Source: Nitrosopumilaceae archaeon
GTDB taxonomy: Archaea > Thermoproteota > Nitrososphaeria > Nitrososphaerales > Nitrosopumilaceae
Reading direction: 5' to 3'
NCBI GenBank assembly: GCA_011523285.1
Contig: WTHC01000054.1
Span: forward strand, 1-49,312
DNA length: 49,312 nt
Below the pieces are notes generated by a model. That model searched no databases and was not told the origin of the DNA. It saw only the letters and a list, made by a program, of their open reading frames with translations. This document shows positions 2,294 to 20,955 of the stretch, piece after piece (the first letter of the stretch is position 1; each line of letters opens with the position of its first letter). A program made the position numbers and the translations under genes.

Positions 2294-3454
2294 ACGTTCA
2301 TAAAAAATTCAACACACGTCAATAAATTTGCAAAAATAATATTTGATGATGGTACAATAATTAATGGTATAGGATTTGGATATCCTAAAACTGTATTTGG
2401 AGAGATGGTATTCAATACAGGAATGGTAGGCTATGTAGAATCTATGACAGATCCATCTTATAATGGACAAATTCTCACCTTCACATACCCACTTATAGGT
2501 AATTATGGAGTTCCTAATATTAGTACAAAAGATGAAAATGGGATTGAAAAACATATAGAATCAGATAGAATTCAAGTAAAAGGAATAGTCATACACGATT
2601 TGTCTTTAGTTTCCAATCATTGGAGTTCAGTTATGACATTAGACGAATGGTTGTATAAAGAACAAATTCCAGGAATATATAATGTAGATACAAGAAAATT
2701 AACAAAAAAACTCAGGGAAGATGGCGTGACGATGTGTGCTTTAGTTGTTAGTGATTCAGATAATGTAAATATTGAAGACATACAAACCAAATTAAAAAAA
2801 ACTGTGAATTACAACAACAAAAATTTTATGGAGTATGTTTCCACTAAAAAAATACAAATCATTGGAGACACAAACTCAAATGTTGTTATAATCGATACAG
2901 GAACAAAAAATTCTATTTTGAGAAACATAATAGACATAAAATATGGAATTATAAAGATGCCATGGAATACAAAAGTTGAAAAGATTTTATCGTACAAACC
3001 AAATGGTGTCATCATAAGTAACGGGCCTGGAGATCCAAAAATATGTGCAGATACCATAAAAACAGCTAATATTTTGTTGGAATACAATATGCCAGTTCTA
3101 GGAATTTGTCTAGGCGCTCAAATTTTAGCTTTAGCTGACCATGCCAAAACATATAAATTGAAATATGGTCACAGAAGCCAAAATAAACCTTGTATAAATA
3201 TAGATGATTCGCGTACATATATCACAAGTCAAAACCATGGATACTGTATAGATCGTGAATCTTTAAAAAATTCTGAATTCAGATTATGGTTTATTAATGC
3301 AGATGATAAAACAGTAGAGGGGATAAAACATAAAAAAAATAAATCTATCGCAGTACAATTTCATCCAGAAGCTGCACCAGGACCTTATGATTGTAAATAT
3401 ATTTTTGATACATTCAAAAAAATTATGGAGGAAAATAAAAACTGTCCAAAATAA
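2294..3454 (+). CDS. carA: Carbamoyl-phosphate synthase small subunit; start codon unclear
   Basis: Glutaminase subunit that supplies ammonia to CarB for carbamoyl phosphate (pyrimidine and arginine synthesis). The N-terminal small-subunit domain (FDDGT, GEMVFNTGMVGY, LTFTYPLIGNYG) is followed by a class I amidotransferase domain with oxyanion motif GPGDPK, nucleophile motif GICLGAQ and the FHPEA His-Glu pair, so the catalytic residues are present. Homology clearly starts upstream of the first ATG (2405), yet no ATG, GTG or TTG lies between the in-frame TAG at 2282 and that ATG. The coordinate given is an ACG six nt after GAGG (2284-2287); ATA at 2291 is another candidate. A TATA-like ATTTAAAT lies at 2256-2263. 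Confidence 0.9.
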   Translation, partial: TFIKNSTHVNKFAKIIFDDGTIINGIGFGYPKTVFGEMVFNTGMVGYVESMTDPSYNGQILTFTYPLIGNYGVPNISTKDENGIEKHIESDRIQVKGIVIHDLSLVSNHWSSVMTLDEWLYKEQIPGIYNVDTRKLTKKLREDGVTMCALVVSDSDNVNIEDIQTKLKKTVNYNNKNFMEYVSTKKIQIIGDTNSNVVIIDTGTKNSILRNIIDIKYGIIKMPWNTKVEKILSYKPNGVIISNGPGDPKICADTIKTANILLEYNMPVLGICLGAQILALADHAKTYKLKYGHRSQNKPCINIDDSRTYITSQNHGYCIDRESLKNSEFRLWFINADDKTVEGIKHKKNKSIAVQFHPEAAPGPYDCKYIFDTFKKIMEENKNCPK

Positions 3455-6400
3455 AAAATATTAAAAAAATACTAGTGCTAGGCAGTGGGGCAATTAAAAT
3501 CGGAGAAGCTGGCGAAAGTCATTAAGGTGGCCGTCAATTCGATTACTCCGGTAGTCAATGCCTCAAGGCAATAATAGAAGATGGAATAAAAACAGTGTTA
3601 GTCAATCCAAACATTGCAACAATCCAAACAGATGCAAAATTTGCTGATAAAATATACTTATTACCAGTGACAACAGAATATGTAAATCGAGTGATAGAAA
3701 AAGAAAGACCAGATGGAGTAATGCTAGGTTTTGGAGGTCAAACTGCTTTAAATTGCGGTGTAAATCTTTCAGATTGTGGATCTATAAAAAAATACGGCAT
3801 CAATGTACTAGGCACTAAAATAGATAGTATCAAAATTAGTGAAGATAGACAACTTTTCAAAGAAGCTATGTCCAATTGCAATGTGCCAACTCTTGAAAGT
3901 GAAGCCGTGGAATCATTTCAAGATGCTAAAATTGTAGCCAAGAGATTAAACTATCCAGTTATCATAAGAGTAGCATATACATTAGGAGGACGAGGTGGCG
4001 GAGTTGCACGAAATGAAATAGAACTATACGAGATAGTAAATAGAGGAATAAATGCAAGTATGGTAGGCCAAGTGTTAATAGAGAAATACATTGGAAATTG
4101 GAAGCAGATAGAATACGAAATAATGAGAGACAGTAACAAAAATAGTATAACTATTTGTAATATGGAGAATATTTTGGCTATGAAAGTGCATACTGGAGAT
4201 AATATAGTAGTAGCTCCATCACAGACAATAAATAATTCAGAATATCATTTACTAAGATCTGCATCTATACGTGCAGCAGATCATGTAAATATTATTGGAG
4301 AATGTAATGTTCAATTTGCATTAGATACACATTCTTCAAAATATGTAGCAATAGAAATGAACCCAAGATTATCACGTTCCTCAGCACTTGCTAGTAAAGC
4401 TACTGGATATCCTATTGCATATATGTCTGCAAAAATTAATTTAGGATATACTTTAGATGAACTACAAAATAACATTACTAAAAAAACTACTGCATGTTTT
4501 GAACCATCACTAGATTATATAGTTTGTAAACATCCACGTTGGGATTTTAATAAATTTGAATTTGCAAGTAAAAAGCTTGGGACCACCATGAAATCCACTG
4601 GAGAAGTTATGTCTATAGGCAGAACATTTGAAGAAGCTTTACAAAAAGCAATAAGAATGCTCGATATAAATAAAGACGGATTAGTACTTAACAAATATGA
4701 CAAAGATATTGACGACGAAGAAGATATAGAAAACCATTTGATGAATCCAGATAATTCTATATTATATTATATTGCTGCTGCAATTAAGAAAAAAATACCA
4801 ATAGAAAAAATTTCAAGACTATCATCAGTGGATCCATGGTTTATAAATAAAATTAAAAATATTGTAGAGTTAGAGAATAAATTAATTCGTAACAAACTTG
4901 ATATGAAGTTACTACGTGAAGTCAAAAAACGTGGTTTTTCAGACAGACAAATAGCCAGAGCAACTAACATAAGTGAGTATAATGTAAGACAAACTAGAAA
5001 ACAAATCGGAGTTGTACCAGTAGTAAAACGAATAGATACATTATCAGCAGAATGGCCTACTCAAACAAATTACTTATATTTAACATATGGGGGGGACAAA
5101 AATGATTTTCAAATAACAAATGGTGGAAGTATAATAGTTTTAGGTGCAGGTCCATACAGGATTGGAAGTAGTGTAGAATTTGACTGGGGCACTGTAAATA
5201 TGGTGTTTGGTTTACAAGAAAATGGTGAAAAAAATGTCAGTGTTATAAATTGCAATCCAGAAACTGTGTCAACTGATTATGATATATGTGAACGCCTTTA
5301 TTTTGAAGAATTAACAATAGAAAGAATTTTAGACATAATAGAATTTGAAAAATCGAAAGGAGTCGTAACATCTGTAGGAGGTCAAATTGCAAACAACTTA
5401 ACTTTACAACTGCATAAAAATGATGTTAATATAATAGGCACAGAGCCTATTAATATAGATAAAGCTGAAGATAGATCTAAATTTAGTAGCATTCTAGATA
5501 GATTAAATATATTACAACCAGCTTGGAAAAAGTTTTCAGATTTGGAAGAGTCTCTAGAATTTGCAAAATTTGTCAAATATCCAATAATCGCACGTCCATC
5601 ATACGTTTTGAGTGGCGCATCTATGAAAGTAGTATGGTCTGAAAACGATTTAAAAAAATATTTTAAGCAAGCTGTGATTTCATTAGAGTATCCTGTGGTA
5701 ATTTCTAAATATATTACTAATGCATTAGAAGTAGATGTAGATGGAGTTTCAGATACAAAAAATGTCATAATTGGATCAATTATCGAACATGTAGATAATG
5801 CAGGCATACATTCTGGAGATGCTATGATGTGCATACCACCAAGAAGGCTAGACAAAATAACAATTGATAAGATTATTCAACATACAAAAAATATAGCAAT
5901 AGAATTCAAAGTTAAAGGTCCATTTAATATACAATTCATTGTTATCAACAAATTAGTATACGTAATAGAATTAAATATAAGGGCGTCAAGATCAATGCCA
6001 TTTGTATCAAAATTAAAGAATATTAATTTAGTAAAACTTGCAGCACAAGCCATTTTGAATAAGCCGTTACAAGAAATAACATGCAAAAATAATAACAAAA
6101 ATTTTGAATTCGGTGTCAAAATACCACAATTTTCATTCATGCAATTAGACGGAGCGGATATAACATTGGGTGTAGAAATGCAATCTACAGGAGAAGTAGC
6201 ATGTTTAGGACATAGTTTTTATGATGCAATATCAAAAGGGTTAATTGCTGCAGGATATAAATTACCAAAAAATGGTTGCGTCATAGTGATTATGGATCAT
6301 AACAATATTAAAGATGAGAGAATTCTAAAATCCATAATGATATTACATGATATTGGCTTTACTATATTAACTACAAGAATAATTAGAAAAATTTTATTAC

Positions 6401-6696
6401 AGAAGCTAAATGATGATAGAAATGATAATATAAAAGATTTGGATATCCAACAACATAACGTAATAGAATTATTGTATCAGAAAAAAATAGACATGGTAAT
6501 TAATATATCAAATACAATGCAAACAACAAGAAATGATAAAATCATCAATGAAGAATATCAAATTAGACGTAAAGCTTTAGAATTAGGCATTCCTGTGTTA
6601 ACTACAATTCAAATTATGGAAGTATTTATAAAGACATTGCAGTGGAGAAATAAGAAGAAAAAAACCTCGATACAGCCATTGAACTTTGAAATATAG
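3442..6696 (+). CDS. carB: Carbamoyl-phosphate synthase large subunit, with in-frame TAA in a 21-nt insertion
   Basis: Forms carbamoyl phosphate from bicarbonate, ATP and ammonia with CarA. Two ATP-grasp halves (first IIRVAYTLGGRGGG, second IIARPSYVLSGASM), the oligomerisation linker and a C-terminal MGS-like allosteric domain are present. The N-terminal LGSGAIKIGEAGE lies in frame upstream and is interrupted at 3517-3537 by seven extra codons containing TAA (3523-3525) before FDYSGSQ resumes. Downstream, the frame is open for about 1050 codons with no sign of decay. No ATG, GTG or TTG fits the true N-terminus. The CTG at 3442, ten nt after GGAGG (3427-3431), is the best guess and overlaps the carA end. 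A downstream GTG (3595) would delete the first nucleotide-binding segment. Confidence 0.85.
3517..3537 (+). other. 21-nt in-frame insertion with stop codon inside carB
   Basis: Between GGC GAA and TTC GAT TAC, which are adjacent in the CarB family (GEFDYSG), seven extra codons read S-H-stop-G-G-R-Q. Nearly half the bases are G or C (10 of 21), well above the surroundings. The segment carries an imperfect direct repeat, GTCATT near its left end and GTCAATT across its right end. Removing it restores a continuous frame. Confidence 0.75.
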
Positions 6697-6930
6697 AATC
6701 ATATAACATTATTTATTATTGTTTCATCACCTATTATTGTTCCATCTAATGATACGATTTTAGCTGATAAGTATTTAGTTCGTCTTAAAATTGGTGAATT
6801 AGATTTACGATTAAATTTTCGAGATACATTACGAAAATATTTATTGAAAGATGGGATAATAGTTATTTCCAAAAGTCCAGACATAGAAGGGAATAGACAA
6901 TCTTTATTAGTTTTTATAGAGACCCAAACT
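6586..6930. repeat. Tandem duplication, copy 1 (345 bp)
   Basis: Copy 1 holds the last 37 codons of carB including the stop, the 2-bp gap, and the antisense C-terminal part of the neighbouring phosphoesterase. It appears identical base for base to 6931-7275. Both copies begin with GGCATTCC, and the same 8 bp recur just after copy 2 (7276-7283), as expected from duplication between short homologies. Confidence 0.95.
6699..6930 (-). pseudogene. Duplicated C-terminal fragment of the metallophosphoesterase
   Basis: Antisense reading of copy 1 gives the last 77 codons of the phosphoesterase encoded at 7044-7781, without its catalytic motifs. It arose from the 345-bp tandem duplication. An ATG at the junction (6935) could in principle start a 78-residue peptide, but nothing suggests that this is expressed. 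Confidence 0.85.
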
Positions 6931-7041
6931 GGCATTCCTGTGTTAACTACAATTCAAATTATGGAAGTATTTATAAAGACATTGCAGTGGAGAAATAAGA
7001 AGAAAAAAACCTCGATACAGCCATTGAACTTTGAAATATAG
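6931..7041 (+). pseudogene. Duplicated C-terminal tail of carB
   Basis: Copy 2 repeats the last 36 residues and stop of CarB (from GIPVLTTIQ onward). It is fused in frame only to antisense phosphoesterase sequence upstream, so it is a by-product of the tandem duplication and not a gene. Confidence 0.85.
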
Positions 7042-7275
7042 AATCATATAACATTATTTATTATTGTTTCATCACCTATTATTGTTCCATCTAATGATAC
7101 GATTTTAGCTGATAAGTATTTAGTTCGTCTTAAAATTGGTGAATTAGATTTACGATTAAATTTTCGAGATACATTACGAAAATATTTATTGAAAGATGGG
7201 ATAATAGTTATTTCCAAAAGTCCAGACATAGAAGGGAATAGACAATCTTTATTAGTTTTTATAGAGACCCAAACT
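6931..7275. repeat. Tandem duplication, copy 2 (345 bp)
   Basis: Second copy, directly abutting the first, with no difference seen. It carries a spare carB tail (6931-7041), while its antisense strand supplies the C-terminus of the intact phosphoesterase. Because the segment spans the ends of two convergent genes, neither full-length gene is disrupted. Confidence 0.95.
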
Positions 7276-7781
7276 GGCATTCCATTTAAGATAGATTTGT
7301 CACTAAAAAATGTAGGATGTATGTGACCCATAATAATTTTGTCTACATTTAGATTTGTAGATGGTTTGACATGGCCATGCGTCAATAATATTTTATCTAT
7401 TATTAGTCCCATAGAGCTTGTTACAGTTATTTCTCGAGGTAACAAATTTTGTATGTTACCATCATGGTTTCCAGGTATTAGTATGACGTTAGTTTTTTTT
7501 GTTATTTTCTCAAAAAAAAAAGCTATATCATTTTGTTCATTTGTAGATATATCATATATACTAGATTTGACATCACCTAATATTATTAATGAATTTGGTT
7601 TTGTGTCATTAATTATGTTTTCAACATCTTGAGTTATATCTTTTATAGCTCTAGATATATGATCGTTATTTGCTATAAATGCATTTTCAAATCCAATATG
7701 TAGATCAGAAATAATTAATTTTTTTTTACTCCCTTCCAAAATTAGTGCAGGTTTAAATGGAACTATTCTTAATTCATACAT
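7044..7781 (-). CDS. Calcineurin-like metallophosphoesterase
   Basis: About 245 residues with the two-metal phosphoesterase motif set in order: SDLHIG, LGDVK, PGNHDG, THGH and MGHIHP. This resembles the archaeal MJ0037-like phosphoesterases, of unknown substrate, probably a nucleotide or nucleic acid. I chose the ATG at 7781 (MYELRIV) over one six codons upstream because a TATA-like TAATTTAA (7802-7809) is centred about 25 nt before it. The C-terminal 77 codons lie inside duplication copy 2. It converges on carB and diverges from the SWIM gene through a symmetrical promoter. Confidence 0.82.
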   Translation of the reverse strand: MYELRIVPFKPALILEGSKKKLIISDLHIGFENAFIANNDHISRAIKDITQDVENIINDTKPNSLIILGDVKSSIYDISTNEQNDIAFFFEKITKKTNVILIPGNHDGNIQNLLPREITVTSSMGLIIDKILLTHGHVKPSTNLNVDKIIMGHIHPTFFSDKSILNGMPVWVSIKTNKDCLFPSMSGLLEITIIPSFNKYFRNVSRKFNRKSNSPILRRTKYLSAKIVSLDGTIIGDETIINNVI

Positions 7782-7826
7782 AATAATATACTTTATCAAT
7801 TAGTTAAATTAGTATGTATGAATTAA
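7769..7826. promoter_or_regulatory. Divergent promoter flanked by a 14-bp inverted repeat
   Basis: The arms at 7769-7782 and 7813-7826 are perfect inverted copies of tATGTATGAATTAA. Each arm contains the start codon of one divergent gene, so both proteins begin Met-Tyr-Glu-Leu. The 30-bp core holds two TATA-like boxes, ataatata (7783-7790) for the plus-strand gene and TAATTTAA (7802-7809, minus strand) for the other, each about 25-27 nt from its start. This fits two leaderless transcripts and possible co-regulation. Confidence 0.65.
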
Positions 7827-20671: not shown

Positions 20672-20955
20672 GTGAGTTGGTGTACGATTACTGTTACGAC
20701 AGAGGAAACTCCTCCCTTCATACAGGATATGTGATCTGGAGATAGATAATCAGAGATGGTTGGCAACAGCATAGAAAAATAATTCGATCTAACATGTACT
20801 GTGAGGATGTAAGAGTCTGAGGTTGTTAGTGGAGAAATGGAAAAGCTGTCCCACATGAAGCAAAGCCGAACAAAACAATAAGTTCCTGTACTCAGTTTAG
20901 GTAGGCTGCAAAGTTAAATATCGTAAAAACAGAAGGAGGGTTACTACCAACACAC
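20672..20955 (+). ncRNA. rnpB: RNase P RNA
   Basis: The RNA subunit of RNase P, which cuts the 5' leader from tRNA precursors. The 5' part contains GAGGAAACTCCTCCC, resembling conserved region I. The 3' part has ACAGAAGGAGGGTTACTACC, resembling conserved regions IV-V. The ends gtgagttggt (20672-20681) and accaacacac (20946-20955) pair as helix P1 with one mismatch. The segment is clearly more GC-rich than the flanks and has no open reading frame. Its length of about 284 nt is plausible for archaea. It ends 13 nt before the convergent gene's stop. Confidence 0.85.

Follow-up and report, generated by a model that had tools for sequence, protein, structure and literature searches.

How a full-length large subunit of carbamoyl-phosphate synthase can be produced from a gene that is closed by a stop codon shortly after its start is the question raised by the carB locus of a Nitrosopumilaceae archaeon. 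In the stretch of DNA analysed here (the window; 49,312 nt of contig WTHC01000054.1), carB is interrupted by 21 nt at positions 3517-3537, with an in-frame TAA at 3523-3525, such that the frame reads ...LVLGSGAIKIGEAGE, SH(stop)GGRQ, FDYSGSQCLKAI.... The initial annotation of the locus had listed four explanations without choosing among them, of which removal from the mRNA has stood, whereas strain-level disruption, assembly error and general readthrough of the stop have fallen. In all likelihood, judging from comparative sequence analysis, this insert is a pre-mRNA intron of the archaeal bulge-helix-bulge (BHB) kind, excised by the tRNA-splicing machinery. The features of the region are compiled in the table.

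Features of the carA-carB region (window positions); cut sites and structural elements are predicted
Feature	Position	Strand	Remarks
carA, small subunit	2405..3454	+	directly 5' of carB; first ATG 2405
carB exon 1	3442..3516	+	25 codons, LSKIKNIKKILVLGSGAIKIGEAGE; predicted start at CTG 3442
Outer helix, exon-1 strand (AUCGGAG, AG)	3499..3508	+	
BHB central helix, 5' strand, GGCG, exon 1	3511..3514	+	pairs with 3532-3535
Bulge 1, AAA	3515..3517	+	predicted 5' cut between 3516 and 3517
carB intron (BHB), probable	3517..3537	+	21 nt, AGTCATTAAGGTGGCCGTCAA; conserved site, variable length, covarying stem, 257 loci
Intron stem, 5' strand GUCAU	3518..3522	+	pairs with 3527-3531 GUGGC
In-frame TAA within carB intron	3523..3525	+	
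Intron stem, 3' strand GUGGC	3527..3531	+	
BHB central helix, 3' strand, CGTC, intron 3' end	3532..3535	+	
Bulge 2, AAT	3536..3538	+	predicted 3' cut between 3537 and 3538
carB exon 2	3538..6696	+	1,052 codons and stop; carbamoyl-phosphate synthase large subunit
Outer helix, exon-2 strand (UU, CUCCGGU)	3543..3552	+	

Apart from the insert, the gene appears sound. Its GC content is 30%, compared with 10 of 21 nt in the insert, in line with the higher GC reported initially. The more than 1000 open and conserved codons first noted downstream amount to 1,052, reaching to the stop at 6696, and hold all CarB domains (Pfam CPSase_L_D2, 1.7e-101; CPSase_L_D1, 1e-63; CPSase_L_D3; ATP-grasp; MGS), while the 25-residue piece encoded by exon 1 matches positions 2-20 of CPSase_L_D1. 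Alignment of CarB from relatives, the check proposed with the initial annotation, bears out that the flanks are contiguous in the family: the codons on either side of the insert are adjacent in intron-free relatives (GEAGEFDYSGSQ), joining GEAGE to FDYSGSQ, and other relatives carry an insert at the same site. The boundary is ambiguous by 2 nt, the removal of 3515-3535, 3516-3536 or 3517-3537 yielding an identical product; 3517-3537 was chosen because, by the BHB rule, each bulge is cut after its second nucleotide.

The 5' end of carB overlaps the end of carA; a GGAGG at 3427-3431 is followed 10 nt on by the CTG at 3442. Relatives show L/M-PK(N/D)ES(L/I)KK at this place, with CTG or ATG as the first codon (CTG in most of the intron-bearing relatives shown, ATG in some), and the carB start seems to be a conserved non-AUG start. 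In carA, Pfam recognises GATase and CPSase_sm_chain; residue 1 already aligns with position 24 of the profile, and the homology begins upstream of the first ATG. The carA frame is open and conserved-looking over approximately 2327-2405, where it holds no ATG, GTG or TTG, and carA may have a non-standard start, too.

The window belongs to a small-genome relative of Nitrosopumilaceae (0.83-Mb assembly, 54 contigs, 93.7% complete), with 'Nitrosopumilaceae archaeon MEX2-MAG6' and 'Thaumarchaeota archaeon COS1_bin_11' as the closest named records. An exact 300-nt direct duplication (6586-6885 and 6931-7230, start-to-start 345 nt) covers the 3' end of carB together with a portion of the neighbouring minus-strand gene at 7044-7799 (metallophosphoesterase-like); so perfect a copy points to an artefact of assembly or to a duplication that is very recent. 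With this duplication at the end of carB and a MAG in 54 contigs, an assembly error or a decayed gene in this strain may come to mind. The insert is, however, shared by both same-genus genomes and recurs at the same site in 257 carB loci, far above chance, and the 1,052-codon remainder is intact. The hundreds of independent assemblies with the same insert confirm it as real and exclude strain-level disruption as well as assembly error; taken together with decay, this explanation retains a negligible probability.

The 257 intron-bearing loci (loci rather than species, the same genome sometimes having been reached by two routes) comprise 111 distinct introns of 20-40 nt in seven families of the order; 51 carB loci in the same set are without intron. 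Most relatives carry it, among them Nitrosarchaeum, Nitrosotenuis, marine group I and part of Nitrosopumilus. A covariance model of the junction gave strong matches throughout the order (families f1, f3, f5, f8, f10, f11 and f12); in the rest of the phylum it found only 48-nt matches, i.e., exons without insert. A Blast search of the junction against plasmid records gave a single partial match, which is unrelated.

The lengths of these introns bear directly on decoding. Readthrough or reassignment of the stop, by which the seven codons would be translated as an extra loop, would suit the window insert, which is 21 nt long and in frame, but homologous inserts of 20, 22, 23, 25, 26, 28, 32, 34 and 40 nt shift the frame of an intact gene. 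In total, 65 of the 111 distinct introns interrupt otherwise intact genes with a length that is not a multiple of three, and simple readthrough or reassignment is therefore no general answer for CarB; it is excluded as a general explanation and next to impossible as an account of the locus. The earlier point that a TAA argues against decoding as selenocysteine or pyrrolysine was correct, but it has become moot.

What the inserts have in common is a structure. A central helix of 4 bp (GGCG/CGYN across the bearers) forms between the end of exon 1 and the end of the intron; bulge 1 comprises 3 nt (ARA) throughout and separates the central helix from the intron stem, and bulge 2 (AAT) is relaxed on its outer side, with more than 3 unpaired nt in many species. 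At least three of the four central pairs are present in all 257 loci, and the intron stem has four of four pairs in 252 of 257. A single-sequence fold of the window junction is not unusually stable (z = -1.1), and the minimum-energy fold departs from the BHB outside the core; because this z-score is weak, covariation was relied on. In 36 distinct aligned sequences the four core pairs of the intron stem are 100% paired, and three of the four have changed on both sides; the whole structure is 96.4% paired, as compared to 18-55% when the partners are slid by 1-3 columns as a control. More distant families have stems such as GTCTG/CAGAC, GCCAG/CTGGC, GCTG/CAGC or GTTAG/CTAAC, a wholesale change of letters with pairing kept. 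The exons join at GGCG-AR/A and CGYN-AA/T, i.e., between the second and third bulge nucleotides, which is where cbf5 pre-mRNA is cut (PMC2738675). The carB insert has the sequence features of a BHB pre-mRNA intron: its removal restores the protein, bulge, 4-bp helix and bulge follow one another, and the join lies at the position seen in cbf5. The motif is too degenerate for a meaningful pattern search over 49 kb. Group I and group II self-splicing introns were also considered; a core of either kind is impossible because the insert has only 21 nt, and the window holds no Rfam match to one. The sole Rfam match is the archaeal RNase P RNA at 20672-20955 (RF00373, 168 bits).

The exons appear to be constrained by the structure as well. 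At the synonymous codons involved in it (ATC, GGA, GGC, GAC, TAC and TCC), 81-88 of 89 distinct intron-bearing sequences use the structure's codon, as opposed to 1-13 of 46 intron-free ones: GGC of the central helix in 88 versus 2, ATC and GGA of the exon-1 strand of the outer helix in 87 versus 11 and 86 versus 7, and TAC and TCC of the exon-2 strand in 83 versus 13 and 81 versus 1. Several unpaired codons show no such contrast; positions -10, +8 and +9 are unpaired yet differ, and the contrast may for that reason be partly compositional, ancestral or clade-linked. The window genome has 30% GC, yet the paired GC-rich codons are kept; ATC and TCC, both used in the BHB exons, are rarely used elsewhere in its carB.

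Two further explanations leave the insert in the mRNA. In translational hopping of the T4 gene 60 type, the peptidyl-tRNA would jump from GAA to just before TTC; a stop soon past the take-off codon and a hairpin in the gap are found here as in known bypass elements, and frame-shifting insert lengths would be compatible with it. Translational bypass requires matching take-off and landing codons. The take-off codon is GAR, yet a terminal GAR is missing from all 111 distinct introns, and the pairing between intron end and exon 1 would be left without a role, which makes hopping very unlikely. Alternatively, CarB may start internally (GTG 3595 or similar), with exon 1 and the intron forming a small regulatory ORF or attenuator: exon 1 has its own GGAGG and start, and the intron stop closes a short ORF. 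However, 134 of the 140 distinct sequences upstream of the insert encode GAIKIGEAGE and vary synonymously where codons are unpaired, the exon 1 peptide is fused to FDYSGSQ in intron-free relatives, the first part of the pre-ATP-grasp domain would go missing, and intron losses are exact to the codon; an internal start is hence extremely unlikely. Removal from the mRNA, by contrast, is strongly supported by the BHB core, the covariation and the frame-shifting lengths, from which we infer splicing itself.

The cleavage and ligation of the carB intron would proceed in the following manner: Within the carAB transcript, the intron would pair with the end of exon 1 to give the BHB; a heterotetrameric (alpha-beta)2 tRNA-splicing endonuclease would then cut after 3516 and after 3537, and the RtcB ligase would join the exons, restoring GAA/TTC (Glu-Phe) and full-length CarB with the junction peptide IGEAGEFDYSGSQ. 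Unspliced mRNA would lead to an immediate stop or a frame shift, and full-length CarB is therefore expected only from spliced mRNA. RtcB is encoded in the window's genome. The MAG has one splicing-endonuclease protein (PF01974/PF02778), which is a beta-like subunit; an alpha-type (catalytic-type) subunit was not found in this 93.7% complete assembly, most simply owing to an assembly gap. Two PF01974 proteins over the cut-off are present in 28 of 30 relatives searched, both same-genus genomes included. The stronger one (in G006 and L355) matches the crenarchaeal EndA structures 2cv8 and 3p1z; that of the window genome is of the weaker type and, by our reading, is without the usual histidine where L355 has DHAPYLV. 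Two proteins per relative fit an alpha2beta2 enzyme, as stated for Thaumarchaeota (PMC4090602), and it is this enzyme type that has been associated with relaxed motifs and with the splicing of cbf5 (PMC2738675).

Only a short distance separates the intron from the carB start, and in all its versions unspliced mRNA would be unable to yield CarB. A regulatory gate, in which ribosomes halted within the intron hairpin or close to it would compete with BHB folding and CarB output (pyrimidine and arginine supply) would depend on the endonuclease and RtcB, is a speculative and rather unlikely extension of the splicing model.

On a tree built from 302 downstream CarB residues, the distribution of the intron requires 10 changes, and well-supported branches make at least 5 of these unavoidable; the outgroups are without intron. 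Most simply, the intron was gained once within the order and lost repeatedly thereafter, in some cases recently. In marine group I, one locus (L084) lost the intron inside a clade of close bearers; its exons retain much of the wording of intron-bearing genes. The carB on one further contig (L086, JAIQZO010000065.1) is of the Nitrosopumilus type, although the record is assigned to a planctomycete MAG (Anammoxibacter); the contig is probably mis-binned. Second introns were considered at other carB interruptions (TGA in L030, TAG in L052, an N run in L013) and discarded, these being point substitutions or gaps with no insert. The single in-frame stops at L030:3193-3195 (TGA) and L052:5887-5889 (TAG) replace ordinary codons of carB and have the look of point errors or of mutations that arose recently.

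A second finding, which is likely but unproven, is that introns with a length divisible by three carry a stop. An in-frame stop is present in all 46 distinct introns of this kind, as compared to 38 of the 65 of other lengths (Fisher 3.7e-8 on raw counts of introns that are related); the 27 stop-less introns are all frame-shifting. In tree-aware independent pairs, the direction of the rule is never contradicted, the differing pairs being too few for significance. The stop itself varies: it is TAA, TAG or TGA at codon 3, or TAG at codon 2 in part of family f8, and in three Nitrosotenuis loci (L049, L030 and L217) the loop stop has been lost and the last intron codon is TAA.

In the literature searched, where subscription journals are poorly covered and priority is accordingly not certain, there is no report of an intron in carB or in a thaumarchaeal mRNA, and BHB introns in coding sequence are reported only from cbf5 of Crenarchaeota. 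A 2020 paper counts one coding archaeal BHB mRNA in addition to its own 5'UTR case (PMC7714728); Yokobori et al. mention earlier predictions of further introns, including some of 12 bp in an archaeal virus, with splicing not shown (PMC2738675). We read carB as a new gene for a kind of intron reported only from cbf5 and one 5'UTR. If true, archaeal mRNA splicing would be neither exclusively crenarchaeal nor an oddity of one gene: the second coding gene would encode a central biosynthetic enzyme and would have its intron through most of an order to which ammonia-oxidising archaea belong. In hundreds of genomes, carB would be truncated or frameshifted by gene callers, and its junction peptide (IGEAGEFDYSGSQCLK) would be overlooked in proteomic searches. 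Since the intron is present in some genera and lost from their close relatives, its gain, its loss and the rule on translatable introns would become testable in archaea.

Several known systems invite comparison: (i) the tiny spliceosomal introns of Paramecium (20-34 nt), among which translatable introns, i.e., stop-less ones with a length divisible by three, are avoided (PMC11334263), as is likely in carB; this is an analogy only, with a spliceosome and nonsense-mediated decay there and a BHB here; (ii) archaeal BHB tRNA introns (11-175 nt, PMC2738675), which are alike in motif, predicted cut sites, enzymes and comparable size, whereas carB offers no tRNA context and its flanking helices are protein-coding exon sequence; (iii) the BHB intron in the 5'UTR of Haloferax volcanii HVO_1309 (PMC7714728), where the archaeal splicing endonuclease likewise acts on an mRNA, as it is predicted to do in carB, but in a euryarchaeon and outside the coding sequence; and (iv) the cbf5 pre-mRNA intron of the crenarchaeal Desulfurococcales and Sulfolobales (Watanabe 2002, Yoshinari 2006, Yokobori 2009, PMC2738675). 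The carB intron is not a member of the cbf5 family at the cbf5 site, since it lies in carB and the cbf5 frame of the window genome is uninterrupted. It differs from the cbf5 intron in gene and lineage (Nitrososphaerota/Thaumarchaeota), in being known here from sequence alone and in the stop found in every carB intron of a length divisible by three. Both, however, have a BHB at the border, often relaxed, and a cut, predicted in carB, that follows the second nucleotide of the bulge; both are short (16-44 nt in cbf5, 20-40 nt in carB), both point to one ancient gain with lineage-specific losses, and both occur in lineages for which a hetero-oligomeric endonuclease is stated.
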